A program made the translations under genes and the position numbers. From Sphaerolaimus hirsutus (lineage: Eukaryota > Nematoda > Chromadorea > Monhysterida > Sphaerolaimidae): a stretch of DNA of 64,000 nt. The stretch spans positions 5,409,469 to 5,473,468 of the forward strand of contig OZ038453.1 of NCBI GenBank assembly GCA_964036195.1, given 5' to 3'. Under the pieces are notes generated by a model. That model did not search any database. It had not been told where the DNA came from and saw nothing but the letters and a program-made list of their open reading frames with translations. Every line of letters starts with the position of its first letter. Within the stretch, counting starts at the first letter, position 1. Below are positions 12,263-49,407 of the stretch, in pieces.

Positions 12263-13304
12263 GTAGTGGTGAGCGCAGCAGCTTGAAAACATTTTAGCAC
12301 ACTCTTTGTGTAAATTTTTCAAGTAGAGACATAAACCTACCATCTTCCTTTAATTTTTTAGTCACCATTCAACACCTTTCATTTCCATAGCAAAAAAGTA
12401 TTCTATTCAATATCTATCCTAAAATCTATTGGACAATACATTCAACTACAGATCCATCAAACTCATTCAATATCAAAAGCTAATAGTTCTAACATTGCAC
12501 ACCTGAACATTGGATCACACCGACATCAGACCTCAAAGGACGATCAGGACAATTTGGACCAACACACAACTGTCAACAGGTGACAATTTTTGCTTTTGTG
12601 TATTTGCTTGTAGTGTTTGAAAGAACAACTTTACCAATAGTTGGAAAATAGTTGAAGAACTAAGTGTTGTTGCCATTTGTCAATTTACCAAGTCTCCTGA
12701 GAACACAATTTTTATCTTACCAAGTTACCTGCAGCAGAAGACCGAATCACTATTCAATTGATGATAGCCAGGACCAACTTTGCCCCAATTTACAAAATAA
12801 ATAGATTAACAGACCCAAGTCTCCCGAGAACACAAGTTTTATTTTAGTGAGTTACTTGCAGCAGAAGACCTAATTGATATTCGATTGATGATAGCCAGGA
12901 CCAGCTCTGCCCCAATTTGAAGATAGATAAACAAATACATTAACAGTTCCTTATCTGGCAACCACAAATTGTGCAAACAATAAGACATCAAATATATTTT
13001 ATATACTTAAATAAAATATTATCAGAAAATTGATCTGCAAGAGTATTTTTTCAAAACTTTTTCCCTGAGTAATCAAAATTTTAATATGGTTATGGAGAGT
13101 TTAGTCCATATATTTCCTTAAACATGGAAAAATATTCCAAAAATGGATATATTTTGCAGTAATGGTCTGTGCATTGATCTTTACAAAGTAACGTCTTCTG
13201 GTATGGAACCAATTAGTAGTAAGATAAAAATGGTGACATCAAGTGACTTTGATATACTAAATTTATCTTGGGAACATATAATCACCCTCACTAGGGCCAC
13301 ATAA

Positions 13305-15307: not shown

Positions 15308-15309
15308 TG

Positions 15310-16510: not shown

Positions 16511-16517
16511 GTGGGTA

Positions 16518-16965
16518 CCGTATTTCCTCGAAATACCCCCCCTTGAAATACCCCCCCCCCCTCGTTTGACCCCCCCCCTCTCGAGACCACTATGAAACAA
16601 TCACCCCCCCCTCGAAATACCCCCCCCCCAAATTGAGTGTAAAGGGAACGTACATGACAATAACTGTAGTTTGTGTTCAGTGTACTGCAGAACACACGTT
16701 AAAACAATGTCGGTGTCACGTTAGAACAGTGTACATACCATCTACATACTAATATTAGTCTACAGAACCTTATAAATGGCGGTTTTTGTTGCATTTTTCG
16801 ACGTCTGCGTACGTTTCAGACGACAATTTCGTACTTGGTTTTCAAAAATTTTCTTGTGAAACAATAACCCCCCCCCTCGAAATACCCCCCCCCTCGTTTA
16901 ACCCCCCCCCTCTCGGGACCACTATGAAACAATCACCCCCCGGGGGGTATTTCGAGGAAATACGG
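16518..16965. mobile_element. TA-flanked MITE, CCGTATT family, copy c
   Basis: Ends CCGTATTTCCTCGAAATAC and GTATTTCGAGGAAATACGG with TA on both sides (16516-16517 and 16966-16967). CCCCTCGAAATA tracts sit at both ends and the core matches copies a, b and d. It inserted into the interior of the LTR retrotransposon, so it is younger than that insertion. Confidence 0.8.
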
Positions 16966-17074
16966 TAATTACCATTTTGCAGAATACAGTGTCTGCATTT
17001 CCTGTAAATGTTTTGACCCTCACCAGTGAGTAATGAGTCAGTTTTGAGAAAACTGAAGTGAGAGGGGGGAATAC

Positions 17075-18417
17075 TGTAACCTGCTCAAGTGGTAATCCCA
17101 AAAAATGTTGAATACCTTGATAAATGACAGTGGGCTACACACAATATATCCATACAGTGTTTTCAGTTTATTTATCTGCCTATGACTGTCCAATTTTCTG
17201 CCAATGGCTCTCATTCACACACACATTACTATGCCTAGCTTAAGAACATACAAAGGGTGGAATTTATTGATTCCCCAATTCAACACAGTATGCCAACTTT
17301 TATGGTAGTCCCAGTGATGTCATCCAGTGACATCATTGAAATGAAAAGAATGATGTCACTTTGTGCAAGTATTTATTGAAGTACACATGGAGCTAAAATA
17401 CAGTTATTATACATTTTATTTCAAAGTTAACAGTTGGTAGGAGTGAATCACCAGTCAAATTATAGGCTTTGTATACACATTTTACCATTAAAATGGAAGA
17501 TTGTTCTGGAAAGTTATCAGCTGTTGACAACTGCTAACAGGTGTTTCACCAGAAGTCAAGGTTTTGTATATGCATTTTACCATGAAAGTGTAGAATGTTC
17601 TGGAAAGTTAGTAACAGTTGGCAACTGATGGTGAATCATCAACTGTACATAAGCAGGAATATAAAAGGGCAGAATTTAGCACTGATTCTCATTATTCTAC
17701 ACTACATTTGAACAAACTTACTGAAGTATTGTGATTATATTGAAACTGCCTTATTAGACTGTACTCTTTGTGAGAGGTCCAATTCTCCCTTTTTGGCTGG
17801 AGAGTCTTGTCTCGGGCATCACCGGGGTCCAGCCAACCTATAATGCTGCCTCGGGCATAACCGGGGTCAAGCCAACCTATAACGCTGCCTCGGGCATAAC
17901 CGGGGTCAAGCTAAAAAAGCGCTGCCTCGGGCACAACCGGGGTTAAGCCAAGCAGTTTCTACCTGTTTTGAGATCAGTGCATCTCAGTATATTTCATTCC
18001 TTTCATTTGTTTACACTTGAATACCAACTGTTGAAGTACAAGGGTTTGTTTTTAAATCTGTTTGTCTGTTACACAGTTTTTATCACCTTTACAATTTTCT
18101 AGTCTCTTTTAAGCATCAAGAACAAGAATAAACTTTTCAAGTAATTTGCATTGCTGTTTTTGTCAACTGAAATAAATAACTTAGTTCCTGTTCTAACCCA
18201 AAACAGGTGGCGAGCGATTCTATAACTCAATTGAAAAGTATAAAGTAAAGTGATTGCAACTAATGAACCGATCAATGCGACCCAAAGAATCAGTAGCAAT
18301 CGAACTAGGTTCACTTTAATAGGTTTTTACCCATATAGTGCCATTTTTACACAACATTTTACCTGCAGAAACTAATCCATAGTTTTGGCGCACAGAAACC
18401 TAGTTCCCCACGTTACA
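17075..18417 (+). repeat. 3' LTR of gag-only retrotransposon
   Basis: 1343 bp, a direct copy of 10953-12262 with scattered differences and one additional unit of the internal 'ctgcctcgggcataacc' tandem repeat (17810-17950). Preceded by the polypurine tract GAGAGGGGGGAAT. Confidence 0.85.
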
Positions 18418-22670: not shown

Positions 22671-23022
22671 TGGTGCCGCGACCGTGCCCGACTCGGCCCG
22701 ACTTCGCCCGACTACCCGACTTGCCCGACTACCCGACTTGCCCGACTACCGGCGCCCGACATCGTCGACTCGACGCCGACGACTCGTCTACATCGGGATC
22801 CAGCGAAACTGACGTCATCAACGACTACAATTGCCTGACTACCAACGGCATCAACTACGTCGAGCGACCATTGACGTCTGCCGACTACTCACCGCTATCG
22901 ACTATCTACGGCAGTTCAACTTGACAGAAAACGTCCATCGTAGCAGGCTACAGCTGTGCTGACAACTGACTCCCCTGATCAGCTACGACACAGCTAATAC
23001 GAAATGTCGACAATTTCGTACG

Positions 23023-24981
23023 ATGCATTCATCGGCTTTGTGGACCAATCGCTTGCTAACAAGGATCTCCACGATGTGCAATGCTGGCATGAGACTGAAT
23101 CCTCGCAAATGTCATTTTTTGAAGGACAGAATCCAGTACCTGGGTCACGTGATTAGTGCCGATGGAATCAGTGTTGATCCTGATAAAGCAGCTGCGATTC
23201 GCGACTACCCGCTACCCGTCACCAAGAAAGATGGAGCAGGATTTTTGGGACTCGCCAGCTACATGCGAAGGTTCCATCACAACTTGTCGCATCGTCTCGC
23301 GCCGCTACGTAAATTCTTCCAAGCACCGGAAACAAAGGCAGAGAAATTGGAATGGACAGACAAGCTGAAGAAATTGTTTCGGCAAATTTGCAATGAGATG
23401 GGTGACCCACGAAGTTTGGCTATGCCTGTGCCTGGCCGTGACTATGTCATCACTACTGATGCAAGTACAGATGGACTTGGTGCGATGTTGGAGCAAGCCA
23501 ACGATGCTGGACAACTGCAACCGATTGCATTTGCAAGTCGCGTCACCGCACCTGCTGAGAAACGCTACTCGGCTACAGAATTGGAAGCTCGTGGAGTGAT
23601 TTACGCTCTGGAGACATTTCGCCCATACATCACTGGGGAAAAAGTGACCGTGTTCACTGATCACCACCCGCTGACTCACCTGTTCCAGAAGAACAGCCCC
23701 TCACATCGCCTATACCGATGGTGCTTAGTGCTACAACAATTTGACGTCACTCTGCGCTACAAGCCTGGGATCAAGAACCAGGTAGCAGACGCACTTTCAC
23801 GCGCACCTGCGGGCACCGTTCCTGTTCGCATGGAGGGAGGAAAGTCAATTGACGAACCAGAAGCAACACTTGACACAGTGTGCAACATTCGAGTGTCACA
23901 CATGTTGGCAAAACTGTTGACGACAAAGCCTGTTGCTGTGAACAACATTGTTTTGGCTGACAAGAAGGAAAGGGAAGAGATGCTGCGATGGCATCATGAG
24001 GGACGATGGGCCGCACATGCAAGCGCACAGAAGACATATCAGCGTCTACGCCCATTCTATTCCCATGCAACTTGGCCGACTCTTGCTGCTGATGTACAAG
24101 CATACTGCAAACAGTGCAATGTCTGCAAACAGCGATCGACTCGATACGAGGTGCTGCCACTGCTACCACGGCCACCTCCAGATCAACCGCGCCGCCGTTG
24201 GCACATGGACTATTCCACATTCATGCCAAACTCCTACAAAGGTCCGCGCTACTGTCTCGTCGCCATCGATGCAATGTCGCGCTTCATTGAGGCAAAATCG
24301 TGCAATGCGACTGATGCGAAAAATGCTGTCAAGATGTTTAACGAGATTGTCACAAAACATGGAGTTCCTGAAGAAGTGGTTACTGACAGTGGAACGCACT
24401 TCAACTGCCACGAGTTCCAGTCAACGCTGCAGAAGCATCAAACTAAGCTGCACACAACTACACCAGGCTCGAAGACCAGCAACGGCATCTGCGAACGTGC
24501 CATCCGCACCCTACAGGATATTCTTGCGAAGAAACAAGCTGACGATGGTCAAGCGTGGAATCTGATACTGCCTGATGCTGTAGCTGCCTACAATGCAACT
24601 GAGCACTCCGCTACTGGCGCTACACCTTTTGAAGTCCATTATGGCTCGAAACGTGCAACAACGGGACATGAGTTTGAACCAGCTCCTCCGCTGATTGACT
24701 TCTGGAAGCGCATCAACAAACGTGTGGAGGCTGCACAACAGAAAGCTGCCAACACTGCTTTCTCCACCAACCCAAACACTCGCTTCAAAATTGGTGATGC
24801 TGTATTCGTCCGAGATGCACCTGCCATGGGAAGCCGCAAAGCAAAACTTGACTTGCCGAATTCCCGCGAAGGCGAGATAGAATCGTTTCCATCGCCAAAG
24901 GCTGCAGTGATCAAGTTCACGAATGGCAAGCATCGTACTGTGCCGATCAACATGCTGCAACCCAGATTCACAAAGAGTTGA
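23023..24981 (+). CDS. pol: Gypsy Pol fragment: RT tail, RNase H, integrase
   Basis: 652-codon open frame. Residues 20-60 are the RT connection/thumb (NPRKCHFLK, YLGHVIS); the RT palm with its YxDD active site is missing. RNase H follows with TTDAS (D about 145), an acidic residue in ATELEA (about 187) and TDHHPL (D about 212). The integrase zinc finger is at 322-365 (H-H-C-C: WHHEGRW..., YCKQCNVCK). The integrase core has D about 395 (HMDYST), D about 453 (VVTDSG) and E about 490 (ICERAI), so the catalytic triad is intact. A C-terminal tail follows with a KxRTVPINML-like end. Gag, protease and most of RT are gone, so this copy cannot reverse-transcribe itself. The true start is unknown; the ATG given is the first in the frame. 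Confidence 0.9.
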   Translation: MHSSALWTNRLLTRISTMCNAGMRLNPRKCHFLKDRIQYLGHVISADGISVDPDKAAAIRDYPLPVTKKDGAGFLGLASYMRRFHHNLSHRLAPLRKFFQAPETKAEKLEWTDKLKKLFRQICNEMGDPRSLAMPVPGRDYVITTDASTDGLGAMLEQANDAGQLQPIAFASRVTAPAEKRYSATELEARGVIYALETFRPYITGEKVTVFTDHHPLTHLFQKNSPSHRLYRWCLVLQQFDVTLRYKPGIKNQVADALSRAPAGTVPVRMEGGKSIDEPEATLDTVCNIRVSHMLAKLLTTKPVAVNNIVLADKKEREEMLRWHHEGRWAAHASAQKTYQRLRPFYSHATWPTLAADVQAYCKQCNVCKQRSTRYEVLPLLPRPPPDQPRRRWHMDYSTFMPNSYKGPRYCLVAIDAMSRFIEAKSCNATDAKNAVKMFNEIVTKHGVPEEVVTDSGTHFNCHEFQSTLQKHQTKLHTTTPGSKTSNGICERAIRTLQDILAKKQADDGQAWNLILPDAVAAYNATEHSATGATPFEVHYGSKRATTGHEFEPAPPLIDFWKRINKRVEAAQQKAANTAFSTNPNTRFKIGDAVFVRDAPAMGSRKAKLDLPNSREGEIESFPSPKAAVIKFTNGKHRTVPINMLQPRFTKS

Positions 24982-31931: not shown

Positions 31932-32329
31932 GACATAACTCCTATCTGTTTGTAGAGTATCGTGTCTGCCGAGTATAAATTTGGAGTAATTTTGGGAAAT
32001 CTAGGCAACAGTTATATTGTTTTAGGGTGCTCCCAGAATTTAAACGCAGACATCCATTTCCTTGACACATTTTGTAATCAATTTTTTCTATTTCATCACC
32101 ATTCAACAGTATTTTCTTAAAAAATGACTTTTGCATCAAGACAGTTTTTCACTTTTTACTATTTCCTTATTCACTAGGTATTCGCATTTCTGAGCTCACT
32201 GATTTCACACAACACATTGACATTGGTGGTTGTTTTAACTAGATTTATGTTTTTATTACCATAAAAATTTCCATCTGTTCATGCTAATGTGTGCTAATGT
32301 GCCAATGTGCTAGTTTACCAACGCGGCAC

Positions 32330-32391
32330 GTCGATCAAAAATGTAAACTGAAACGCGACGCGTCGCGCGTCGGTTTACATTTTTGATCGAC
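32330..32391. repeat. Subterminal hairpin with GCGACGCGTCGC loop
   Basis: Perfect 19-bp arms GTCGATCAAAAATGTAAAC (32330-32348) and the complement (32373-32391) enclose a 24-base loop with GCGACGCGTCGC. Further GCGACGCGTCGC/GACGCGTC sites follow at 32460-32470 and 32520-32575, and similar GCGACGC repeats occur in a transposase intron (46960-47000). It sits 20 bases inside the proposed left end, where subterminal transposase-binding sites would be expected. Confidence 0.6.
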
Positions 32392-33395
32392 ATGTGTAAT
32401 TTAGTTTACAATGGTGTTTCACTTTCTGCGGTTAGTGGTTTCGGCAAGTCACAAAAGTGTGACGCGTCGCACAATTACACACGAATGTGACACAGCTGGG
32501 TAAACTGGAAGTGACGATAATGCGACGCGTCGCTTTCGTCGCGCGACGCGTCCTATGCTACTCGCGACGTGTCGTACAGCAAAAAATAAGGAAGGATTTA
32601 ATCCCCGAGACTTATCAGGTGAGCAGTAAACTAAATTTATTGACTTTTCAAATTCCCTAACGTATCTTTGCTGCGAAACGTAGACATTTTTGATGTGACA
32701 ATTACGTTTCATGTGCGTTTGTGGTGTATCTGCTAACATTTGTTCTTTATCGTGACTGTTGATATTTATTCATTTTTGTTACTTTTTACTTCAATTTACA
32801 AATTGAAATCTACTCAACAGATTTATTGCGTGATTTCATAATGTTTTTACGGATAGAAAAATGAAAGATTACATGGACACGTGATTTGTATGGAAGTAAA
32901 AAGACATGCAAGTAAGTGCGACAAAAACAAATGCAACCTTGTACTCGCTAATTTTCAATTTCAATCTAAAACTGTAAAAAACAAAATCATTATCCTTCTC
33001 GCTGTAACAAAAACTAAGAAAAAACAAAAACAAGACTATATTCATGTTGACAAGAGTTACACTTTTGAGCAAAATTTAAAACTTGTTTACCAATTTCATA
33101 ATTGCGAATTTTGACAATTGTATCTGGATGACAGTAAAAAAGTACATAATGTTTAAACTTTGAAATGTGATAATTTTGGAATATTGAAAAGTTACAAAAA
33201 AAATTCACTGTATGAAAACGTAACATGATTAAGAAAGTGCATTAAAACATATTCACTACTTTCACCACTTTCACATGACTGAAGCCTCCTGTGCATGTAA
33301 ACCCGGTGTGCATGTGGACCCTAATTTTCACTGAAATTGGACAATTTCCATACCTTTTTATATATTTTCACCTTTGAAACCACTAGTCCATGTGT

Positions 33396-33401
33396 TTTAT
33401 T
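33396..33401 (-). terminator. AATAAA polyadenylation signal of gene C
   Basis: AATAAA on the minus strand, about 20 bases after the TGA (33421-33423) that ends the last exon of gene C. Position and orientation fit a compact 3' UTR. Confidence 0.6.
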
Positions 33402-33420
33402 TTTAAGAACTATCAATCGC

Positions 33421-36400
33421 TCACTGCACATTGAAACATGTACAACACTGAAAACCACAACGTATTGAACCAAATACGTACCACAAGTCGTTTGGCGTAG
33501 CACTCCTCATCCAAAGGGCAATTGCGTGGCGTCGTACCGGCGCGCAATTGGCGGATCGGCTGTGGCACGGTAGGGCGCTGTTCACTGGTCGGCGGCGGTT
33601 CGCTTGTCTGCACATTTTCGTACTGTAAACATAGATTACAGTACAAAGCAAAATATCGAAGCAATTTTCTTTCCTAACCGTTTTGTTCCCGGCAGCCGCT
33701 TGCTCATTCTTCTTTGCACTTTTGCGCGCGCTGGCCGGGGAACTGGCAGCAGTCTGATTCTGAGTTTATATTATCAGTTTATAATGGCAACAAAGTTGTA
33801 CAACAGAAGCACTGCAGACAGAAACTTACTGTCAGGCGGTACTGCTTCGCAGCACATTCTGTGTCCGGTACACGCTGGCCAGTGCGTTTCTGGGCACTTT
33901 GCGGCAGTACGACGCCATCATTGTTCTTGCAGTCCATTTCAGCGGGCTGTAAAAAAGCGGATAGAATTTACTTGCTTCTTAACACTGAATTATAAGTAGG
34001 AAAAAAAACAGAAACTGTCAGTCACCTCGGCAAACTGCAGCTGTTGATGCTGCCGCTGCAGCGCCTGCGAGTACGCCAAGCCGTCTTCACTGGTATCTGA
34101 CGGCACCTGGTGGCAGAACTGCAAATATACATGAGAAATTTCAATTTGCATATGGTATTGCACATGAAGAAGTAATGAAATGTCTTACTAACGGGAACGT
34201 TTTGCAGGGCTTGCTGCAATTGCTTCACCTCAAACCGGGTCGCCTGAAGCTTGGCAGCCTGGGCAACCTTGGAAGCCTGCCTTTGCTGCAAGTGTGCGGC
34301 GATGGTTGTCGCTGTGTACGCATTCACCGGTGACGTGTATGGCAAACTTGGTGCCTGCACGTTCTGTTGCGGAGCAGGCAATTTGTGCACGGTGTGGCAT
34401 TGGCCCTTTTCTGTCGGCACAGATTTCTACGGTTTTTTCATAGACCCGGCAAGTTGGTCCAGTTGTTGCGTTGGCTGTAAGTACGATATGTCACTTTATC
34501 ATAATCATAAAGAAATGCAATACTACAAATAAGTACCACTGTGCACACTGATTTACCGAAATATGTATAAGAATGTGTAAATTGTATTTCATCAAAAGTA
34601 ACAATAAGTAAATCTTTGAAATTACACATTTTCAATTTACCAAAAGATGCATCTTAAGTAGTTTGTTGACACAAAAGAAATAGTGCAATCCTAACAATTT
34701 CAGCCAGGTATTGTACCAGACTGTCGTCTTGGTCCGGTTTGGCAACTTTCGCCTCCTGCTGCGGAAACGCAAAGTTGCCCGGCAGTGTTTTCTGATGTAA
34801 GTAACATTAGTAGTTAGTACAGGGTTGTTAGTTACATGCTGTTTACGTACATCATGAAACACCACCGTTATACTCACCTGCACCGGCGTGACGTTGTAGT
34901 CCATTTCCGCGTTCTTTTGTGGTGCAGCTAGGGGCGACACAATGAGACCGCTGGTCCTGCGGCGGCGGCGTTCGAGCAGCGCACTGCCAGACGGATTGGC
35001 AGCCGGAGCCGCAACGATCGACAAACTGGTCATTCCAGTATGGCCCGAGTCCTACGAAAAGTTAACATCATTTACGAAACGTTTCAAGTAAATTACTTTT
35101 TCCTACTTTTAAGTGGTGACGTTGAGATACGTTAAAGGCAACAGTCCAGAAAACACACACACTCCATCCACGAAATGTTTATCAATCAAATAACCTGGTT
35201 CATGATGAAGTCCTCGATCATGTCACAGAACTTGCTCAGATCGGCCTTCAGCAGCGTGTTGATGACGCCGATTTCCTGCTGCACCATGCCGATGAACCTT
35301 TTGTTGTTGATGAACGAGCAAATGCAGGGCAGTTTGCTGCGCTTCACGCTGTCCGCATTCACGCTTGTGCTCTGCAAATTAGCACATTTGAAAGATATGG
35401 TAGAATTGACTGAATACATGACAATAACGAATAGTTTACCGATTGGGTGCACTGCGACAGCATGCTTTCCATATTTTGGCGCATTGCACGGACCGCTGCA
35501 AAGTCCATCTTGTTGATAATGGGCGCGCACTGTTCCAGCACGCTGTGAAACTGGGGGTTCGTCAGGGGCTCGTGCACGCGGCATGTCTGGCGGTGGTTAC
35601 GGCAATGTAAAAAAAGTGTATATTAAAAACGGAAAATTCAACTAAAATGGTCAAAACGTAACACTTAACAACAACAATTTACTATTACACTTTAACGTTA
35701 ACACAAAGTAAATTTTTCTTCACGCATTACAATTTTCCCGTTACATTCATGCAACTCGCACCTGGTTGTTGTCCTGCGCCACGATGGGCGCGTTGTCCTG
35801 CGCCATGTCGGGCGCCTCGTGAAAGTCCTCCGGCGGTGCGCTATCGACAGTTTGGGCACCCGTCCGTGGCACATTGTGGGTATCTGCAGGTGGGACGGCA
35901 CTCTCAGCCTGTTGAACTCGGAAATCAACGAGTTGCACCGCCATACTTTGCGGCTCCAATTTCTCTGGCATGAACGTGGTTTTCACCAATTTGCCGAGCA
36001 TCATGTAAAAGTTGCCCTGGCACACGTTGTGCCAGTAAATCTGCATTGCTTGGCGCCAATCGGTCGCTGTAAAGTGCACAACCACTGCTACAAACGTACA
36101 AACATAAAAACAACATTAAATGATACATTTCAGTAAACCAACATCTACTGGCCGTTCCTTCCTTGAATACAATCATCGGCATGGTGGAGAACTGGATCAT
36201 TTCTTCTGCCAGTTGCATAGCCTGAGCCTCTGATTGCCGCATTTGTTGCACCAGGGTAAAAACGATGTGCGCCTTCAAGTCGTTTCACACTTTGTCCAAC
36301 TCGATTTTCCACGCGTACTCCCCCAGTTCGCGCCGGCTGATCAGAATAAATGTGTTGAAAACGTTACTACTGTTCCCCAAACTGTGATAATTCCATGACG

Positions 36401-39400
36401 CAAGGCTTATCTGAATCGACCTTGGGCAGTTCTCCTGGCTCCACTGGCGAAATGGCGGCTTTTTGTTCAGCGGTGCGGCCCTGACTGCGCAGGCATTCCA
36501 CGATGTTGGGAAACACTGAGTAGTTGTACCAATTTTGCGTAATGCAAATGCGAAGTTTACGTATACATGGCCTGGAAAGGGCAAACTCACCGGACTCGTC
36601 TGCATAGTAGCCCATGTGCTTCAGAGTCATGAAATTCAGCTCCATGATCTTCTTGTAGTAGTGTGCCCCGAGGTCCTTGTTTGACACGCCGCTCAGACGG
36701 CCGCCGTAAATTATGCGCGCTTGGGTCAATGCTCTCTGAAAGGACAGTGAAACAGTGTTACGTGTACGGTGTAAAACAAAGTTGCTTACTTAAAACTGAA
36801 AGTAAATATTGTTTGCACTTGCCGTAAAACGGAAACTGAAACCTATTTGCACTTGCACAAAAACAAATACGGCAAAATGTTTTGCACTTGCCGGAAAAGG
36901 GAAACAGATACATTTGCCGCACTTGCCGTAAAACGGCATACAGAAATTTGACACAGCAGTACTCGTCAACTGTAAACTGAGAAGTCTAAAACATGATTAA
37001 CCTTGAACTGCCGCTTTTTCGTGTCCCACATAGACTGCAAAATGCCGCGGCAGGCAGCCAAAGCATCTTTGTTTGTTGCAGCGGACTCGTTGGCCACCTC
37101 GCGGGTCAACCACATCTTCTGGTCGGGGTAGTTGTCGTACAGGGGCTCAAAGGAGCTCTCCCTTGTGAAGTTGTTCCACAACCTGTTCACCGCTGGGTGA
37201 TCCGATTGCTGAAAAAAGAAATGAAAGAATGGTTACAGAAAGGAAGCTTTAACTATCAAATGAAAGTAAGCAGTAAACTGCAACTAATGTTCATTTGCCT
37301 TTCCGGGTGATTTAGGTCGTACTTGGTGCACTCCTTCATGCTCCAGCACCTGCAATGTGAGTAATGTACGTGTTCACAACAGCCATTTACTTGTGTGATA
37401 AAAAAATACAAACAGTAACAAACAGCGGGTATTTCTGGAACAGCTTGTGGAACTTCTCCCAGAATTCTTCCGATTTCTCTGCCGGAATCAGCACGCTCGG
37501 CCGGCCTCCAACGCCAACGCGGCTCACATCTGAGGTCACTCACACACCGTCTTAACTGTCCAGTATACTGTTTCCAGCCATGCACGTTTGTGAATATCCT
37601 GTTAAATACAGGTAGCCTTACAGCTAACCGTTTCATCATGATATTGTACGAATTGCAAGGCAAGGAACAGTTTACATTTACTTGCAGATGGTGTGTGACT
37701 GTCACCGGTTTTTTCAGGGTTTTTTCCGGCCACTTTCATCTTGCTCGAGCGCTTTTCAGTCTTCAACTGGGCCACCGCCAGCGACCGCTCATCGTCATTG
37801 GATGGCGTTTGCGACCCGTTGTTGGGGCCGCGGCCGCGCGGCCCCAACAGATTCATTTCCTGAGTTATGGGAGGTATGTGAGATTGTCACGTAACTGAAA
37901 ATGTATGGGAAAGTCACAATTATGCATGATCCGGAACTATCCAAACCAAAGGGGTCGGAATCGTAAGCTACCTCTTGGTCATCATCCTGCTGGGTGAAGT
38001 CCTCCACCCAGTCCTTGTCCTTCTGTGGATTGTCCTCGTCCACTTGGCCATCCTGAAGCTTTTTCAGTTGCTTCGTGGCATTCACGCAAGAGCAGCGCAC
38101 ATTGCTGTTGTCGCGGCGGATGACTGGTACTTGCTGTATACAAGAAAGTGCTACTGTAACTGCAAACTCTTCTTTTGAAAATGCCAAAAACGGTCATTTA
38201 AACGTACCACTTTAGCGACCTGTGCAGCCAGCGCCCTCGTTTGCTCCTCCAGTCTCCTGGCATTTTCCTTGCTCTGCCTTTCCATTTCAACGTCCACTGC
38301 GCTCGGTGGCGACTTGGCGGTCTGACTGTACCGCGGTGTGATGAAGTCGTCATCATCGTTCTGCAGTTTACAACGCTATGTTTACTGTTTCATGTAAAGA
38401 GAACTTAAAAAGAAGTTTACTACATCTGCACATGCACATGGTAAACTGCAAACTTTGTGCTTGTAGGCATTCATAAATGGGGTTGGAACGGATTGCAGTT
38501 TACTTGAATGAGTTATTCCCAAGTAATTGCGTTTGACAGATACATTATTTTGGTGAACTGACATGCATTCAAAGCCAATTTATGATGTTACCAGCACACA
38601 GTTTGCAGTTCAGCATGTGTACCCAAGTTAAATTAACCTCCCAGTCATCCCACTTCACCTTGGCACGCACATTCTCTTTCTTCACATGTTCTTCGTGCAG
38701 GCTCCTTTTGCTTTTGGACGCCTTGCTCTTCAGCGCCACGTGTCGCTCGTACTCGCGCTTTGCCTGAGAGATATTTCAAAGTAGTGTTTTGTAGTGACAA
38801 TTACACAGTGTTCTAAAACACAGTGTGTTTCAAATTCATGTATACAGCAAGACTCGCTGGCAGATTTTAGAACGGTACAAATCGTGGAATGTGTCTATAT
38901 AGTTACTGCTTGAAAGATGAAAGGTATGGGTTCAAGCAAATCATGTTTACTGTGACAACCCATATCCCATGAAAGTCGGGGATTTGGCATTCCCCATCCC
39001 GATCCCTTCAAAGTAAATTCCATTTTAACCGTACTGAAAATAACACACTGTTAAAAAACACAGTGTGTTCCAAATAATGAGAAGCTTGAGACTATCCAGA
39101 ATCTCTGTTCGCTATTTTTTTGACAGTAGAAATTGTGGAATGTGTGTATATAGTGTGTGCTTGAAACATGAAAGATGCGGGTTCAAGCAAATCACGTTTA
39201 CTTGTGAGGAACGTGATCCCGATCCCGATCCCAGATCCGTGAAAGTCCAGCATTTTGCAGTCCCTATCCCGATCCCCATCCCGATCACGAAAAGTCAATC
39301 CACTTTGAACCGTACTGACAATGACACACTGTGTTCCAAATAAAGGGTGTAAAGGTGTTCTGGCAACCATGAGCTAGGTTCGCTAGAGAGTTTTGAAACG

Positions 39401-40381
39401 GTAGAAATAGTGCAACGTGTGTATATAGTTACTGCTTGAAACATGATAGATGTGGTTTCAAGCGTTTAATGTTTACTGTGGCAAACGGAATCCCGATCCC
39501 GGATACCGTGAAAGTCCTGTATTTTGCAGTCCCTATCCCGATCCCCATTTGTAGCCGATCCCGATCCCAATCCCCATCCCGATCCCCATCCCCATACTGA
39601 TCCCCATCCTGATCCCGATCCCCATCCGTATGCCAATCCGCATCCCAATAAGTAAATTCCCTTTGAACCGTGTTGAAAATAACACACTGTTTTTAACACA
39701 GTGTGTTCCAAATAATGGGAAGCTTGTACATGTGGACCTACACACGACTTGCTAGAATCTCCATTTGTACTGTAGAAATAGTGGAATGTGTGTATATAGT
39801 GTGTGCTTGAAACATGAAAGATGCGGGTTCAAGCAAATCACGTTTACTGTGAGGAACGTGATCCCCATCCCGATCCCGATCCCCATCCGTATGCCGATCC
39901 CCATCCCGATCCCAATCCCCATCCCGATCCCGATCCCGAAAACTCAATCCCCTTTGAATCCTAGTGACAATGACACACTGTTTAACTACAGTGCATTTCA
40001 AATAAATATTCGCTGTAATATGTTCATGTAAATACACAAATTTTTGCACAATTTGTTTTGCTGTATGGAAGAAATCGTGCAAGGTGTCTACAGTGTGTGC
40101 TTGAAACATGAAAGATTTGGGTTGAAGCCAAAATAGTCAGAAATGTTTAACTGTGAGAATGACACACGGTTGTTAAAAACCGCGTGTTTCAAATAATGAA
40201 AGGTAACTCAACCTGTCAATTGCACACAGGTATTTTAGGCATGACATTCATGTCTACAGTGCGTGCTTGAAACATGAATGATGTGGGTTTAAGCAAAAAA
40301 TGTCCAAAATTTCAATGTCCAAAAGTCAAACGTCACCTTCTCAGTCAGCATCAGATCATACTCGGATGATGGGCGGGCAGT
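33421..40381 (-). pseudogene. Gene C: ~20-exon unknown protein, lesions present
   Basis: Exons (minus): 40337-40381, 38638-38763, 38208-38360, 37972-38133, 37682-37859, 37420-37529, 37299-37349, 37002-37208, 36149-36735, 35762-36087, 35440-35586, 35195-35371, 34878-35051, 34696-34791, 34193-34474, 34026-34118, 33830-33946, 33679-33759, 33482-33622, stop at 33421. Splice sites and phases agree at every junction, giving about 1,080 residues. Early exons are acidic or basic low-complexity (KVKWDDWE, NDDDDF, DFTQQDDDQ); middle exons are globular (FWEKFHKLFQKYPLF, LYDNYPDQKMWLTREV); later ones are Q-rich. Lesions: TAG 36367-36369 with a frame change, TGA 36285-36287 and TAG 34427-34429. One intron is GC-AG (37299). 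I recognise no domain. A 5' exon is probably missing from the model. Confidence 0.7.
38808..40320. repeat. Tandem ~240-360-bp repeat with GATCCC tracts, in a gene C intron
   Basis: About six units, each starting 'acacagtgtgttccaaat' and containing 'gtgtatatagt', 'gcttgaaacatgaaagat' and 'ggttcaagcaaatca' (starts near 38808, 39045, 39322, 39685, 39978 and 40163). Three of them carry long CCCGATCCCGATCCC hexamer runs (39215-39290, 39485-39650, 39855-39945). It lies entirely between gene C exons 40337 and 38763. Minus-strand ORFs with 'RDRDRD' or 'GIGIGIG' texture are artefacts. Confidence 0.75.
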
Positions 40382-40446
40382 CTGAAAAAAATTTAAGTCG
40401 GAAGTGCGCACACGTCTAACGTGTCATACAACAGAATAAAAGCAGT

Positions 40447-41491
40447 ATGCCTAGCCTAACTGAACAACTTAATTCACTGGCAGTTGGGAACAAGAGTGTA
40501 ATGTCGCAGCAAGGGCAGCAATCCAGCGGGCCTTACGCTGCGCAACAGTCGCAGTCCAATTTCAGTCGCACTTTCTCACATGGTCAGATACGCGGCATGT
40601 TCCAGTTTCCCGCCACAATGAACACTTCAGCCTACCCCTTTCCACCACCGCCCCCAAACAGGTGCTTGTGTACACATTTCAGTATCGTTTCTCTAAAGCT
40701 ACCTGCCTATCAAGAACCAATTAAAATTTAAACAGCACATTCTAATAAAGAATGTGCTCCAAATAGTGAGGTATGATTGTTTTGGACAAGGATTTACGCA
40801 ACAACATTCTGCTTGAGACTGCAACCAAACTCTAAAAATGCATGTCATCATCATTTTCCATGAAACATGACATTTGTGGGTTTCACTTTTCACACTGCTA
40901 AATGCTTTTTGTGATTGCAGGTGCAGCAAACAGTTCTTATGTGATAAGGTTTGTGTATGAGAAAATGTAACAGTGTGTACACAAGCACAGTTTTCGTTTT
41001 CCGGTACCCAGTGCGTCTACACCCAATCAAACAACACAAGTGCAAAGTGCTACTTCAGTGTCCACAGCTGAAGGCATGAGTATTGACAGGAGTGAGGAGG
41101 ATGCTGGCCCCAGAATGACAGCATTTCATGCTGTTAGTTTACAGTGTGGTAAAAACTGACCATGTTGACAAAAATGTGTCAAAGTTGATCATGTGTTATT
41201 CTTCAAGAAATGCGGTTTTTTCCATTTCTTTCAAAATGCAGATGGATGAGCTCATCAACTTCATGAAAACCACCAAGAACAACATTGTACATGTGAACAC
41301 GCAAGTGCAGAAACTGGTGAACACAGTGAACCAGTTTACGGGCAAGAATGCATATGGCCAGTAAAGCTACGGAGGTTCTGTTGGAACACACAAAGTTGCT
41401 CGAAAAGAAAGAGAAGGCTTATGAGCTGATGGTGACAGAGCTTGTTCTGCGTGACCTGCAGCGTACCCATCCTGTCAATCGCTACATGTGA
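40447..41491 (+). CDS. Gene B: small Q/S/P-rich protein with helical C-terminus
   Basis: Exon 1 40447-40661 opens MPSLTEQLNSLAV, then Q/S-rich sequence (QQGQQSSGPYAAQQSQ) and FPPPPPN; donor AACAG|GTGCTT leaves phase 2. Exon 2 from 40991 continues in phase (PSASTPNQTTQVQS, SIDRSEEDAG) to GCT|GTTAGT at about 41135. Exon 3 from 41242 (MDELINFMKTTKNN) is helical and ends at TAA 41362-41364. A +1 frame from about 41358 stays open (KATEVLLEHTKLLEKKEKA...) to TGA 41491, suggesting a one-base lesion or a missed splice. AATAAA at 41575-41580. It lies antisense between genes A and C. No domain recognised; a DNA-binding or coiled-coil partner is possible but unsupported. Confidence 0.5.
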
Positions 41492-41574
41492 AACACTGAA
41501 CCAACTGATTCCCCCCTTTTATACACAGAAGTGTGATGTTCAGAAAGTACTACTTAAAAGTGAACCGTTCTTGT

Positions 41575-41580
41575 AATAAA
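41575..41580 (+). terminator. AATAAA polyadenylation signal of gene B
   Basis: AATAAA on the plus strand 84 bases after the TGA at 41489-41491. It supports gene B as a real plus-strand transcription unit. Confidence 0.5.
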
Positions 41581-41647
41581 TGTCTGCGAAAGCGCAACAG
41601 AACTGCAAACTCATGTTACTACTGTCAAAATTCAAATTTAGCTTCAC

Positions 41648-44600
41648 GTCGGACGCTGTGGGCGGGGCTGTGTCAGCCGGGTTTGCCCGGCGGTGCGGTC
41701 CGGGTGGGCTCGGCGGGCGCGGCGTGATCATCTGGCAAGGCAGGCGTGTCGGGCTCAGCGTTATTGGGTGGGTTCTGGTTATCCGCCCACCACGGAACAC
41801 GATGGGGTACATCCTGAAAAAATGAGAAATGTTGAAAGAATTTTGCATTAGAAAAAGCTGTAAAGTATTGCATGCACACGCTAGTTTACTGTCACATCTA
41901 AGTAAAGTGATAATCCAGCTTTGAACACATTTCAGTTAACTGAAATGGTTTATTCATTGACTGCAGTTGCCAGAGACATCATTGTATGAAACGCAAATGT
42001 GTTATAAGTTGAGGTATCAGTTTACAAAAATGTTGTGGTAAAGTAGTGTGTGCATGACCATTAGTACAACATAAGCTGGATTACAGGGAAGCTAACTAAC
42101 ACCAAAGAATGACACCGAAAATGAGGGAAAAAAGTATAGATGGTGCATGTACTTCAGCGATGTACATGCTTAAGAATTAGTTGAAATCAGAATCCACCTT
42201 CCTTTCACCAACACCGGGAAAGTGCACAGTTAATATTCCTAGAAGCTACATAAAAACTTTAAATGGTAAGTGCGACTTACAGTTAAACTTACACTGTCCA
42301 ACGGCCTACCTGCCATTCAGAAAGTTATTCAAAAAAAGTGAACAGTAAAATGGTAAACAGTGTCCAGCTAAAGATATCCATCAGGCCGAACGGAAGCGAA
42401 TTTGTGCGGAGGCGAATTGTATCGGGCGCAAACAGGCTAGGTGTCCTTGTCTGGTGCCGAATCCAACTGTCGTCACCAGTACCCGTGTGAATCCAGCCCT
42501 GGCCCTTGTCCAAAACATCTGCAGAAAAGAGCACATTACAATTAATGTTTCTTTTCCATGTTAAACTGACAGTTAGAAAAGAGTACCTTCTTTGTACATG
42601 GCCGGCAATGGGGTAGTGCACGTGGGCATGGCCAACTCGTTCCGGATGTCTTGCAGGGTCTGCTAAATAGGAGAAACATTTTGAGAAAATGTTTTGCAAA
42701 AGGAACTTAGTCATGTATAATTTTGTAAATACAAAATTATAAAATCAGTGCAGTATAAGCCAGTTTCGATTCAGCCAAAGCAATTCTCACTTTTTAAGAA
42801 ACAATTAAAATTTTAAGACAGTGAAAAAGTGGGAATTTTGATGGCTGAAAAATATATATATGGAACACACAGACATTTTTGATTCCCAGAATATGCACCT
42901 TTCTAAGAACCAATTAAAATTGTCAGCCAGTGAAACAGTGAGAAATTTGATGGCTGAAAAATATATATATGGAACAGACTGAAACATTTTCGATTCCATC
43001 AATCTACACCTTTCTAAGAACCAATTAAAATTGTCAACCAGTGAAACAGTGAGAATTTTGATGGCTGAAAAATATATATATATGGCACACACTGAGACAT
43101 TTTTGATTCCAACTTCTGATGCATGAGGTGAACAATTTTCAAAACAGAAAGATGGGAAAAAGTGATTTTACAGAAGGATTTTGGTATAACAAAAATTTAA
43201 ATATGGAACCCACTTTTTTTGATTCCAAACATACCTGCAGAATGTGCAAAATTTTTGCAACAGAAACATGGGGAAATTTTATTTCACATGAAAGATTTTG
43301 GTTATACACAAATATAAATATGGAAGCCACTTAGACACTTTCGATTCCAATGGAATATGCAGAAGGTGAAAAATTTTAAAAAGAGAAACATGTGAAAAAT
43401 GGATCTCACATGAAACATTTTGGTTGAAGAAAACTATATATGGAACCCTGTCAGACACTTTTTGATTTCACACATATACGCAGAGTTTGCCAAAACTTCG
43501 AAACGGAATTATGGGAAAAAGTCATTTTACATGACCGATTTTTGGTATAACCAAAATATAAATATGAGCCCATTTCCCTACTTTTTTGATTAATATATGT
43601 CTCCTTATTTCACAAAAAAAACAATCGTACTGAACTAACTTCGGCGGTGATTGTGCCCTTCACCTTCTGCACGCCACTGCTTTTCAACTGGAGATCAGTG
43701 CGCTTATCTGGCACGATCGGATCGCCATACTGAAATACGTAAGAGTACATCTATTGAAGAATTTACCAAACTGAACATTCTTATATTGAAACTTCTGCAT
43801 ACTTAAAATTTACATTTAACGAAAACAAAGCGCAAAAAGGATGAAAGTAAAGAAGTAAACTTACTTCATTCAGAGGGGCAGTTCTGATCTCACAGGTCCT
43901 GTTGTGCTCCTCCCTCAAGCGCTTCTTTTCCGCAATCATCCCGGGGCTGTCCGGCGGAATTGGTAGGCCGGCCTCCATCGCCGCGCGCGCTTCCCCATCC
44001 TGCAACACATTCAGAAACGTCTAAAACATGTCTCAAGAACACTGAAAGAATTCTTACTGAAAGAAAACTAACGTAAATGTTGTGTCACCGCGGCTTGTCA
44101 CAAACGAAGAGCGGCCACTTTCGCTTGGGCTTCTCGGCTGTGGCAGCGTCTTGGCCAACTGTCGGCGTCGGGGGCTTGGTTTTCTCGGCTGTGGCAGTGT
44201 CTTGGCAAACTGTCGGCGTCGGGGACTGTGAACCCCCAACAACGACAGTTTGCACTTTCTTCTGTTGCACGGGCGCCGGCAATTCCTTGGCGGGCAGTAT
44301 GACGGGCGCGGGTACGTGTTGCGCGGGCGCGGGTGCGGACACGGAAGCCGTAGTGCTTGCAGCGGGTGCAACCACTGCAGACGGCACAAGGGGACCACCG
44401 TACACATTCATGGCTGACACACGTGCCTGCTGTTGCAGCTCCTGCTGCAAAGTCACAGTGTGTGTGTGTGTGAGATCAAAGGATCAGTTTGCATCTACAT
44501 TTTACACAATGGGTAAAAGGTGCTACAGTATGTCTGTCACAGTGTGCAAAGTTACACTGTCATGGCAACATCAGTTTACATCTACTTTTAAAATAAGTGG

Positions 44601-45665
44601 TGAAAAGAGCAACAGTAGTTCACGTTGTGCAAAATTTCAGGAAAGTGTACAGTCAGGTATTTCTGATTGAGTGTGTAACGCCGGAAAGAGAACATATACA
44701 AATGAAGAAAAAATGACGAACCATTTTTTTCTCTTTCAATTCCAGCCTTTTCTTGTGTCTGCGCCAACTTTCTCAGCCTTCTTTGCTCCTCCATCGACAA
44801 TTTCTGCTGGCGCGCTCTTTCCTCCTCGCACGCTTTTTCCTGCTCCTCCAAATGGTCACCATCAGCGGGGACTTCCGGCTCAGCCGGAGACTCCTGACTC
44901 GCGAACAAATCCTGAAAAGGAACATTGTGTACACTTTTGACACGATGGAAAGAAAATTCCACATAGTTGAAACAAATGAAATGTGAGTTTACAAAAAAGC
45001 ACAGAAGTTTGCTAAATTACAGCTGAATTTAGACTAATTTCAAATAAAGAATATAATGTATGTGTAGAAAAAGTTCAGAAACCTGTACAAATATAAGTAG
45101 CAAACCTGCAACAAAACCCTGCCAAACAAATGTGCGAGGTGATCGTCCGGGACAATCATGCGCTGCGGCTCGAAAATGTCACGCTGAGAAGTCTGCGCGG
45201 CCTGCCCTCTGGTGTGCATGTTTGTGCCTCGGCCGCGCACGGGCGGTCCAGTCGGAACGGTCTGAAGTGGGGCAAACGATTTGTAAACATTGGTTGGCTT
45301 ATCTTGGATTGTAAACATTCGCGTTGGCTTGTAAACATTCTCAAATTGTAGATAAATTGGCTGATGTCCAAAACACACTTGTACTCAAACAAAAATGATA
45401 ACTAGAAAACACATGAAAAGAAATGGTAAGATAATTGTTGGGAGATAACCAAAGAAATCGAATCAGTAACCTGTTCTGGCGGCTGGCTCTCAGTTTTCTG
45501 CTTTGGCGGCCATCCACGTTTGTTTCCATTTTTGCCTTTGCCGCCATCTGAAGTAGTTTCCGCGGTCGCGGCAACGTTTTGGGATCTGCCGCGCACCATA
45601 CCGCCCAGAGTTCGGACCATTTTCGACGCGAAATCAATCGAACGGTCTATTTTTGACTTTTCCAC
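41648..45665 (-). CDS. Gene A: ~9-exon unknown protein, divergent from transposase
   Basis: ATG 45663-45665. Exons: 45471-45665, 45106-45261, about 44731-44911, about 44089-44444, 43865-43999, 43640-43729, 42587-42662, 42359-42518 and 41648 or 41673-41813. The start is basic (MEKSKIDRSIDFASKMVRTL, GKGKNGNKRGWPP). Exon 3 is a charged helix, probably coiled coil (EEQEKACEEERARQQKL). Exon 4 is Ala/Pro/Thr-rich with two copies of a PTPTV.QD.ATAEK repeat, then KRKWPLFVCDKP. Exon 8 has GWIHTGTGDDSWIRHQ. Most phases agree; the ends of exons 3 and 4 are uncertain. The last exon is open in two frames: one stops at TGA 41673-41675, the other leads in phase into gene C exon 40381, so A and C could be one gene. 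In Harbinger elements the divergent partner is usually a Myb/SANT protein; I see no such domain. Confidence 0.55.
42770..43600. repeat. Tandem ~110-bp repeats in a gene A intron
   Basis: Three close copies (42795-43110) share 'aagaaccaattaaaattgtc', 'cagtgaaacagtgag' and 'gatggctgaaaaatatata'. Further diverged copies (43110-43600) follow with 'gatgggaaaaagtgatttt' and 'ttttggtata'. It is confined to the intron between exons at 43640 and 42662. A piece of the unit ('aagaaccaattaaaattt') is also present at 40714. Confidence 0.65.
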
Positions 45666-45870
45666 AAAATTTTTGCTTTTTATTTCTTATCTTTGAAAGA
45701 TATGGATTTGTGCCAAAAAAAAGTGACACGTCGTGATACAATTTTATGTTATTCATGGTTACTTTTTTTATCACTTGTTACATTTCTGGCTATATGCCAG
45801 AAATGTCTGGCATATGGCCAGAAATCTGAAATATCGATTTACAAAAACTGTCGCCAAAAAACGTTTCAAA
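45666..45870. promoter_or_regulatory. 205-bp divergent promoter region of gene A and transposase
   Basis: The region between the two start codons carries a perfect 10-bp inverted repeat ATATGCCAGA-AATG-TCTGGCATAT (45792-45815). It also has two further CCAGAAAT/ATTTCTGG half-sites on either side (45783-45790 and about 45823-45832). Clustering of four half-sites between divergent genes suggests an operator for an element-encoded DNA-binding protein. No TATA box was seen. Confidence 0.5.
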
Positions 45871-48353
45871 ATGGTGCACGATGAATCTGTTTTGGGACAA
45901 ATGCAAATAATGAACGAAGCGCTAGAGCGGAATTTGGATGGAACTGCGCCACTAACACACAATCAGAAGAGACAAATATTAGCCGCTTTTTTGGCAGTCG
46001 GGAACATGTTGTTTTCGTATGCTGTGGACAACGACGACAAAGAACAAGAGCAGGAACAGCAGAATGCCGCGCAAGAACAGGGTGATCAGCGCAGGAAAAA
46101 GTACATGACACCGTATTTACTAGAAAGGGCATGCTCCAGGGGCAATTACTGGCGAGCTGTTATTGCCTGCAAGAACACCGATCCAGCATGGTTTTACAAA
46201 CTGTGCAGGGTTCGTTGTTTCACAATTTCTGTTATTTACGTAAAATATACAGTTGTATATAACATCACTTACTGTGTTGTGACATTTTCATGTTATTGTT
46301 TACAACAACATTGCAATCAAACAGTAAACTGATATGTATGAATGAACTCAGTTTACTGATAATGTTCACAATGATTACAAATTAATTACAGCTGTGGCCA
46401 ACTGAATTCGAACAGCTGCACGCAATGCTTACAGCTGTCGACCCTGATACTGGTGAACAGTACCTGAGAACACAAGATGAAAGAAGACACATCACTGTAG
46501 TGACAACAGAAATGTGACTGTTTTACTTTCTGTATACATGCGCAAACGGCCGGGAAGTTGAAGATTGTGCCGGCCAGTCACAGGTGATACCATTTTGCAT
46601 GCTTTTAGATTGCTTTATAGTTCATTGTATTTTGGAAAAACATTTACAGATTTCCGGCGCTACGATTAGAACGATTATTGACGAAGTGTCCACCGGAATA
46701 GTGAAAGTTTTGAAGGACCACTTGAAACCTATGGGGAGTGATTTAGGGCAAATGAAAGATTTCATGCAGCAATACTGGAAACTGTGGCAAATGCCAAACT
46801 GTGTGGGGAGTCTGGATGGGAAACACATCTGTATTTGCAAACCCGCTGGTAAGTACATATCATTTTACACATTTTACTTTTGCCCTCATGTGTGTTGTTT
46901 CCAGTAAACATAAAAAAGGGTGAGTTGTATGCAACGTCACGGTAAACTAAGCGTTGCATTTGCGACGCTTGCGACGCTGGCGACGCGTGCGTCGCCTTCA
47001 ATCAGAAATAGTCACCAGTTTACCAAGGTTGCAAATTTTTTTGTGAAAACGTCGCTTTTCGTCGCATTTTGTGTCGCAAACGTTGCAAAATCGTCGCTTT
47101 TGCTTGAGTTTGATGCCAACCCCCACCGATTTCAAAGTAACTTCATTTGGGTCATGGGAATGTTGTGAAAATGATTTTTGGATGTACTTGTAGAGGAAAA
47201 AATTGTGCTTCTTCTGACGTACCTGGCTTCTCATAAAAGTTATCTAAAAAAAAGTTTTTTTTTAAAAGCCAAATTGCGCGACGAAATGGCAACGGTCTGG
47301 CGACAGTCTGGCGACTGTAGAAAAATGACTAAATTCACAGTGATGGGAAACTGTGCAGTGAGGTGGAAATGTTTACAGTTACAAAAGTAAATGAAAAACG
47401 CCTTGCAGAGGGTGGAATGAGGTACTGGTGCTACAAGGGCTTCTCGTCGATTATACTGTTCATCAGCGCCAGCGCGGATTTGAAAATTCAGTACGTGGAC
47501 ATCGGTATGCTGGGTTCACAAGCAGATGGTGCTGTGCTGATCACATCTGATTTTGGGCAGGATTTGATGTGAGTTTACATCCTTTTTGACATGTTCCAAT
47601 GAGGTGCTATACATTTACACATGATAAAAGTGATACATTTACACAGACATGGCAGAATGCTTATGGCGCCACCGTGCTTGCTGCCCGGTGCAGATGCCAA
47701 CGAACCTGCAAATACCATTCCGAGTTATTTTGTGGGTGATCAAGCGTTCACATTGTGCAAGTGGTGTATGGTGCCATATGCGCTGCATGCAGATGACAGC
47801 CAGCGACACTTCAACTATTGGTGTGTTCGAATATTCTGAAAGAAGCATTGTTTGGTTAAACTGAAATCTAAATTTGACTGCAACTACTGCAGCTTATCCC
47901 GAGCTAGGCACACTGTCGAATGTGTCTTTGGTATTTTGGCTGGCAGATGGCGCATACTGCTGACCTGTATCACGATGGAACCGCCACGTGTACAAAGACT
48001 GGTTATGGCCTGTTGCCACCTGCACAATTGGCTGCGTGATATCTGCAGGGCAAGTGCTGCCAACCAATTTTATGAAAATGGCGATGAAAAACCACAAGAC
48101 GACCCAAACGACACTGTTGAGCGAAATGTAAGTTTACCTTGCATATTCACTGTTACAATTCAACATCACATAAATTCATTTCCATACACAGCTGCAGTGG
48201 CGACAAGTGTATGATAACATGGATACAATTGATGACGTGCCAATCCAAAGGGACGTTGATGAAAGAGATGCGTGCCCCATCAGGGATGCAATCAAGCAGT
48301 GGATGATGACGGCCTCCGGTCGTGTTGCGTGGGTGAATCCCACTGACTGCTGA
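45871..48353 (+). pseudogene. PIF/Harbinger transposase, 7 exons, one nonsense codon
   Basis: Exons 45871-46209, 46392-46583, 46650-46848, 47409-47568, 47647-47820, 47893-48127 and 48192-48353; all phases agree, 486 residues. The N-terminus (KKYMTPYLLERACSRGNYW, DPAWFYKLCR) matches the region before the DDE domain in Harbinger nucleases. Catalytic motifs: first D in CVGSLDGKH (about residue 233), second D in YFVGDQAF, E in SRARHTVECVFG, followed by RWRIL and the CCHLHNWL helix, typical of DDE_Tnp_4. TGA 46515-46517 breaks exon 2 where the family has continuous coding. The cleavage enzyme would act on the element ends. The intron at 46849-47408 is long and carries GCGACGC repeats. It shares its upstream region with gene A. 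Confidence 0.9.
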
Positions 48354-49200
48354 ATTTGCAACTACATTGAATATAAAAATCAAACTGAAAAATTTCCCTT
48401 GCAGTGGCAGTTAGCATTAAAGTGGCACTGGAATGGTAAACTGATGTAACAAATACAAAAAATTCATTTTCATGCTATCTGCTACAGCTACATTTTTCGA
48501 TTGCAACTGGTTATAATGGTTGTTCTGTAGTACACTGTCGTTGAATGGACAATTTTCATTCACTATTTGATTTTTGGCTGATTTTTTCTTTTTTAATTGT
48601 GATTAAATCATAATTCGCCAAGTCTTTTGTTTCACGCCGCGAAAAATTGTGTGATGTGTGCATCTCATGTTCCTCTTTCATGTGTGATTTTTTTTTCCGC
48701 ATTCAGGCTTTCCGTTCACGTGCTAGTGATTTATTTGCGTTTAATTGAAATAAAATCATCAAAAATCGAAAGTTTATATTTCATGTCCGCCGTGTACACC
48801 AATCGATAGCGCAATGAAAACTGATAATTTAGAACGTTTCAATAAACGAAAAAACGTAACAGGTGATTTTATAAAAATTTATATACACAAAAAACTGATA
48901 AATTCAATAAAAAATCCAATGTTGCACTTAAAAATATTTTAAAATTTTTGACAACATCTACACAACATACTGTACACGATGACACAAAAAAATTGAACAT
49001 GATGCGTGAACAATGCTCCGTTCTTCCACAATTAAAGAAATTAGAAATTAACGTTTACAGCGTAAATTCACATCACAGGCAAACTTGAAAAAAATAAAGA
49101 TGGCGGCCTAAACTCTGCCCACTTTTACTATGCGTAAATTTAGCCGGTAAACTAAAAAATTGAGTTTACCGCCAGTAAACTGAAAACGCCAGTAAACTAG
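48354..49200. other. Right shoulder of Harbinger-type element, non-coding
   Basis: No ORF with coding texture. ATTAAA near 48415 may be the transposase polyadenylation signal. The last 60 bases hold four GTAAAC/GTTTAC sites (49146-49198) ending at AGTAAACTAG. Confidence 0.5.
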
Positions 49201-49407
49201 TGTGCGTGGGGCCAATAAGCCATGATATATAAGTGTAGTTGATAAAATCTCTAAAATAGGTAGGTGAAAACAACTATAAACACGTGCAGCCAAAATTGAT
49301 GGAAAATAGGCAATAATTCACATTAACAATAATGATTTTAAAATCAGAAAAAATTATGTGGATAGGGAAGGTCCAGTGAAAAGTAGCAAACATTTATGCC
49401 TCGGGAG

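Follow-up and report, generated by a model that had tools for sequence, protein, structure and literature searches.

The window, a stretch of 64,000 nucleotides from the nematode Sphaerolaimus hirsutus (C4:5409469-5473468 of a 348.5-Mb genome in 762 contigs), contains one decayed copy of a large DNA transposon that has recently spread; the transposase gene T and two further genes, B and AC, are all broken in this copy. The transposon has a transposase of the DDE_Tnp_4 type, inverted-repeat ends, a 3-bp target-site duplication, many copies, and three genes in each full-length copy. Judged by its sequence, it belongs to the PHIS superfamily and has a mostly Pangu-like ANT target site. An earlier interpretation made from the letters of the window (hereafter the sequence-only reading) had proposed a multi-gene PIF/Harbinger-related transposon of about 17 kb whose genes A, B and C are new to the superfamily, and this proposal is borne out by near-identical independent copies that include all three (A and C correspond to our gene AC). 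The coordinates of all features are collected in Table 1.

The genome contains 163 matches to PF13359 (DDE_Tnp_4). We assign 137 of the 150 listed matches to the T family, an assignment checked by alignment only for the loci that were fetched. Ten T loci were fetched, with about 20 kb each. Five of them (L015, L017, L021, L025 and L027; the young copies) are full-length copies of 17.4-18.3 kb that are colinear with the window copy from end to end; their mutual identity is 98.75-99.86%, and their flanks differ. A further full-length copy, L051/L052, was found through AC and is 95.5% identical to the window copy; its B is open and its AC broken. The gene set and gene order are identical in all seven full-length copies (the five young copies, L051 and the window copy). 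Copies with boundaries that exclude A, B or C, which the sequence-only reading had named as fatal to it, are not what we find: five of the ten T loci, the window copy and L051 include all of them. Three other T loci (L011, L013 and L019) are deletion derivatives of about 2.8-4 kb: sequence of the left end and the 3' portion of T remain, but AC, B, the first exon of T and most, if not all, of its second exon are gone. L009 and L023 contain a long terminal repeat (LTR) retrotransposon inside T and were read only as far as region A; with that limit, a complete T without the remaining genes was seen at none of the ten loci. As to whether the gene exons co-occur with the transposase, a check that the sequence-only reading had proposed, a search with one AC exon as query gave 103 candidate places, 40 of which were scored; at 26 of the 40 a listed T match in the expected orientation lies no more than 15 kb away, in 25 of these cases at 9.5-12.5 kb. 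Both the AC-exon and the T matches are those listed, and several of the fetched full-length copies are not represented among the 40 by their exon.

Two side observations concern these searches. The LTR retrotransposon, about 12.6 kb long, lies at copy coordinates 3237-15809 in L009 and 2672-15257 in L023, two different places in T. We had considered a nested, T-specific parasite; this was rejected, because the direct repeats of 1,294 bp (99.8% identity in L009) and the open frame of 2,915 codons in the 12.57 kb of extra DNA are those of an ordinary LTR retrotransposon. The 13 listed PF13359 matches excluded from the T family cover no more than the beginning of the profile (positions 2-69) in a stop-free open frame of 257 residues (e.g., C10:278755-278925 and C10:280829-280999), and are probably another Harbinger-type family.

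Both ends could be read in 17 copies, namely nine of ten further pairs of end pieces, seven of the ten T loci, and the window; L009, L019, L023 and the pair L033/L034 gave no end pair. Terminal inverted repeats are present in all 17, shortened on the left in the window copy. In the young copies they read GTGGCTGTACACGCTAGTTTAC on the left and GGCCCCGCGCACACTAGTTTAC on the right (reverse strand), and 15 of the 22 positions are alike. The flanking triplet is identical on both sides in 14 of the 17 copies (nine AAT, four ATT and one TTT), and 14 identical triplets were reached in 6 of 20,000 shufflings of the right sides. This alignment of copies, which had been proposed as a means to fix the ends and the duplication, puts the ends at 32307 and 49213, close to the interval of 32310..49200 given before. 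The earlier claim of short matching ends holds in so far as the other copies reveal inverted repeats farther out; the match on which the claim was based is at chance level, with three matches in the scan here versus 0, 0, 1, 2, 2 and 0 at six shifted placements. The TGTGC direct repeat (or TGTG) fails as a duplication, since the actual one is 3 bp long, AAT in the window and AAT or ATT in the other copies. A TA duplication inside CTAG, as in NuwaII, and the absence of any duplication, as in Spy, were likewise dropped once the copies showed AAT or ATT. A literature search with the end sequences listed entries that looked like chance primer matches.

The spliced Harbinger transposase of the sequence-only reading is confirmed as T, a gene of seven exons on the plus strand. 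In the window T comprises 487 codons with a single in-frame stop at codon 155, and PF13359 matches the portion after the stop (E=2.8e-23, positions 1-158 of the 158 in the profile). Among proteins T has 11 homologues at E<=0.001 (28-57% identity over 15-99% of the query); no match was found among viral contigs, phage records or solved structures. The frames of T and B are open in each of the five young copies. The stop at codon 155 is common to the window copy and the older copy L051; it may have been inherited, with movement in trans, or may reflect a repeated CpG change. The gene next to T is indeed divergent and on the minus strand, as had been claimed together with a promoter region of 205 bp; the start codons of AC and T are in fact 250 bp apart, and this gap is a candidate for a shared promoter.

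The minus-strand coding signal of regions A and C is real. With parameters trained on T alone, region A scores 51.9 (maximum of 20 shuffles 6.3, antisense 13.2) and region C 95.0 (12.2 and 7.0), and ten scans of the flanks score at most 22.8. The sequence-only reading had treated A and C as separate, giving four genes, and had described one of its unknown proteins as about 1,080 residues long from about 20 exons. In the two young copies modelled with a gene finder, L021 and L025, A and C are joined in one gene on the minus strand, with 31 exons and 1,574 and 1,557 amino acids, respectively, so that the element has three predicted genes, with AC encoding about 1,570 amino acids. The last AC exon of L021 has no counterpart in the window copy. 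B is nested antisense within an AC intron (window 40382-41614). In L021, no Pfam family reaches the cut-off in B or in the searched part of AC (residues 1-617 and about 668 further residues, of 1,574), although a highly divergent domain might escape this search, and a Myb/SANT domain was not found in B or in the same part of AC. Protein searches with window C (7,993 candidates, none at E<=10) and with a 165-residue piece of it (12 candidates, no match) used queries from a decayed copy; C gave no match to viral contigs, nor its core to solved structures. Near the start of AC in L021 and L025 we read by eye KRGRPPK, which we take to be an AT-hook-like motif; it gave no library hit. AC introns contain tandem repeats at window positions 38800-40300 and 42790-43500. 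The former are poorly kept: in two 500-bp bins, comparison of L021 with the window copy gives 80-83%.

Selection was estimated as omega, in which amino-acid and silent changes between L021 and another copy are compared with the neutral numbers predicted from non-coding DNA, CpG being handled separately. For the window copy all three genes show fewer amino-acid changes, relative to silent ones, than neutrality predicts: omega is 0.70 in AC (P=0.0007), 0.52 in T (P=0.008) and 0.29 in B (P=0.004), the lowest of the three. A simpler method gives 0.46, 0.38 and 0.22, respectively. Between L021 and L027 omega of AC is 0.46 (P=0.006); between L021 and L025 no gene is significant at 0.05 (P=0.061, 0.17 and 0.59 for AC, T and B).

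The interval is also marked by a short motif. AGTTTAC is its top-enriched 7-mer, with 32 occurrences inside versus 5 outside (P=7.6e-14; the outside count omits a 1.8-kb tandem array at 8.8-10.6 kb that itself has 25 copies), and 25 of the 32 sites have the form YAGTTTAC. The young copies contain 39-40 motifs and L051 contains 33, whereas the flanks of the young copies have one in the 10.9 kb examined. In L021, 2 of 40 motifs fall in exons, which make up 38% of the element (P=1.2e-6); five lie within the first 340 bp and four within the last 70 bp.

The element is a multi-copy, three-gene DNA transposon, and taken whole we consider the following explanation highly probable, although the roles of the genes in it are inferred. 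T would excise the element and insert it at AWT-type sites. AC or B would recognise YAGTTTAC in the inverted repeats and in non-coding DNA, and this recognition would mark the whole 17 kb as self. Self-marking may gather the transposition complex on a long element, or it may prevent silencing. AC and B would replace the Myb/SANT helper of ordinary Harbinger elements.

Several observations weigh against this explanation. The flanking triplets are unlike in 3 of the 17 copies (aat/att in L025 and L031, att/atc in L035), one target pair is TTT/TTT, and no empty insertion site was found. The co-occurrence of AC with T holds only in part: 8 of the 40 scored AC places have no listed T nearby, and 6 have one only at 23-46 kb. 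(Three of these six distant pairs are 23.4-24.3 kb apart, a distance that would fit the LTR insert; one of them is L023, and the two others, at 23.4-23.9 kb, look as if they had the same insert.) The gene models are computed predictions; in the window no Pfam family reaches its curated cut-off in A, B or C, and B has a coding score of 0 there with the parameters trained on T alone. Amino-acid changes in AC amount to 1.10 times the neutral intron count and silent changes to 1.57 times, and the evidence for selection on AC is weak because its omega falls below 1 through silent changes more numerous than the intron rate predicts. The motif shows no clear excess of conservation either (31 of 36 sites kept versus 577 of 748 for 7-mers of the same composition; P=0.30).

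The plant VANDAL elements provide an analogy for a different role of AC. AC would then be guided by the motif and act as a VANC-like anti-silencing protein outside the cutting machinery, a possibility that we regard as somewhat unlikely. In VANDAL21, YAGTATTAY, the motif of VANC21, is over-represented in non-coding DNA, introns and tandem repeats among it (PMC5735166), and YAGTTTAC is likewise non-coding, with 38 of 40 motifs in L021 outside predicted exons. However, its occurrence in both inverted repeats and its clusters at the ends fit transposition equally well, and its orientation in L021 is mixed (22 and 18), in contrast to the arrays of VANC21 motifs in one orientation. Between L021 and the window copy C-to-T changes per site reach 0.124 at CpG versus 0.019 at other C, as expected under host methylation. 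This CpG decay suggests that the host methylates the element, and for that reason a VANC21-like role against silencing merits attention. More doubtful is the further proposal of AC as an anti-silencing factor that recognises its own element and acts outside plants: it would read the approximately 40 YAGTTTAC motifs in introns and ends, shield the 17 kb from methylation, and represent an independent counterpart of VANC.

An alternative explanation is that T alone moves the element and that AC and B are hitchhiking cargo, for example captured host genes. Giant transposons commonly carry additional genes of unknown function (PMC12477816), the count of amino-acid changes in AC is near neutral, and L027 is one of the five young copies despite its broken AC. 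Nevertheless, we judge this explanation to be rather unlikely, as both genes are present in 7 of 7 full-length copies, AC is open in four of the five young copies though it is the longest target for lesions, and among the three genes the signal of selection is strongest in B, which has the lowest omega.

It appears improbable that A and C are separate genes and that their union in one model of 31 exons is an artefact of the gene finder. The model is computed with GT-AG introns that the script imposes, which are therefore not independent support for it, and the script returned two genes in the window copy; however, both modelled young copies gave one and the same gene, and in the exon frame of L021 the joined gene has an open frame of 1,566 or 1,574 codons in L015, L017, L021 and L025, and a broken one in L027. 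A last alternative is that a small Harbinger element happens to adjoin host genes A, B and C that have no relation to it. Its sole support is the average size of known elements, about 3.5-4.8 kb (PMC4482050); it is next to impossible and was refuted by the seven independent full-length copies, which have common outer ends and all genes, and by target duplications that flank the entire 17 kb.

Table 1. Features of the transposon copy in the window (positions in the window, position 1 being its first letter).
Feature	Position	Strand	Remarks
Whole element, window copy	32307..49213		16,907 bp; 93.75-93.91% identity to the five young copies
Target-site duplication AAT, left	32304..32306		From comparison with other copies
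Left end	32307..32320	+	10 bp missing relative to other copies, whose inverted repeat has 22 bp
Right inverted repeat	49192..49213	-	15/22 bp match the left repeat of other copies
Target-site duplication AAT, right	49214..49216		From the sequence and other copies
Gene T, DDE transposase	45871..48353	+	7 exons; in-frame stop at codon 155 in the window; 486 amino acids in young copies
Exons of T	45871-46209, 46392-46583, 46650-46848, 47409-47568, 47647-47820, 47893-48127, 48192-48353	+	Spliced model
Gap between AC and T start codons	45621..45870		250 bp; candidate shared promoter
Gene AC (A and C of the sequence-only reading)	33482..45620	-	30 of 31 exons placed in the window by mapping; frame broken here
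Gene B	40447..41494	+	3 exons (40447-40661, 40991-41132, 41242-~41494); frameshifted in the window; 197 amino acids in young copies
AGTTTAC, 32 copies	32312..49198	both	First and last sit in the inverted repeats

The flanks of the element in the window are repeat-rich. The tandem array at 8800-10600, outside the element, has its 25 GTAAACT in a single orientation throughout. In the region 11168-18146, two stretches separated by about 6.1 kb are nearly identical (97-98% in two 300-nucleotide pieces); they are probably the LTRs of a retrotransposon, with a gag-like frame located at 13764-14756. An LTR-retrotransposon open frame of 672 codons with RNase H and integrase domains lies at 22963-24978. 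An Rfam scan of the window gave no match.

With this element the PHIS superfamily gains a 17-kb form that has three genes and many introns and spread recently enough for its copies to be 98.75-99.86% identical; the element illustrates that a Harbinger-like class of mobile DNA can far exceed the usual complexity of a few kilobases. Most annotation pipelines would call a 31-exon gene like AC a host gene. The element also makes it possible to test how long cut-and-paste elements recognise themselves, and whether the extra genes serve movement or escape from silencing.

The assignment to PIF/Harbinger made in the sequence-only reading holds at the level of the PHIS transposase; the target is mostly the ANT of Pangu, and the TWA of classic PIF/Harbinger elements occurs in none of the 17 copies. 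Its statement that known elements usually have two proteins within a few kilobases agrees with the averages for autonomous PHIS elements in the groups compared here, 3.5-4.8 kb with one or two open reading frames (PMC4482050), and with the likewise small fish elements, also with one or two (PMC9179366), but PHISTA elements with a third protein are known (PMC12730594). Our literature search, outside of which subscription papers and Repbase fall, found no PHIS element of matching size or gene set. Among the closest known groups is Pangu (Harbinger2 in Repbase), which has a transposase of the DDE_Tnp_4 type and a second gene without a known domain (PMC4482050). Its ANT duplication (PMC4482050) compares with AAT or ATT in 13 of our 17 copies and one TTT. 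However, Pangu elements average about 3.5 kb with two open reading frames (PMC4482050), whereas the element described here has about 17.5 kb, three genes, a seven-exon transposase, a 31-exon companion and weak inverted repeats (15/22). The left repeat starts with GT and the right one with GG; in Pangu the usual start is AG or GG.

PIF/Harbinger sensu stricto, NuwaI and NuwaII resemble our element in the superfamily of their transposase and in having a companion gene next to it, but their duplications are TWA, CWG or C|TNA|G, and their companion bears a Myb/SANT domain, of which none was found here in B or the searched part of AC. PHISTA and HarbingerS combine a PHIS transposase with further proteins (PMC12730594); PHISTA has TA duplications and a TET/JBP gene and HarbingerS a SET domain, and Pfam found neither domain here. 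Giant multi-gene transposons exist in other superfamilies: the KDZ, EnSpm and Sola elements of algae exceed 10 kb and carry accessory genes as well (PMC12477816), but belong to other transposase superfamilies, and the Harbinger elements of algae have two tail-to-tail genes (PMC12477816). VANDAL21 of Arabidopsis, with its VANC21 protein, resembles our element in the enrichment of a short motif in its non-coding parts (PMC5735166); it is a MuDR element whose motif is bound in assays and occurs in a single orientation (PMC5735166), whereas binding of the motif described here is a proposal.

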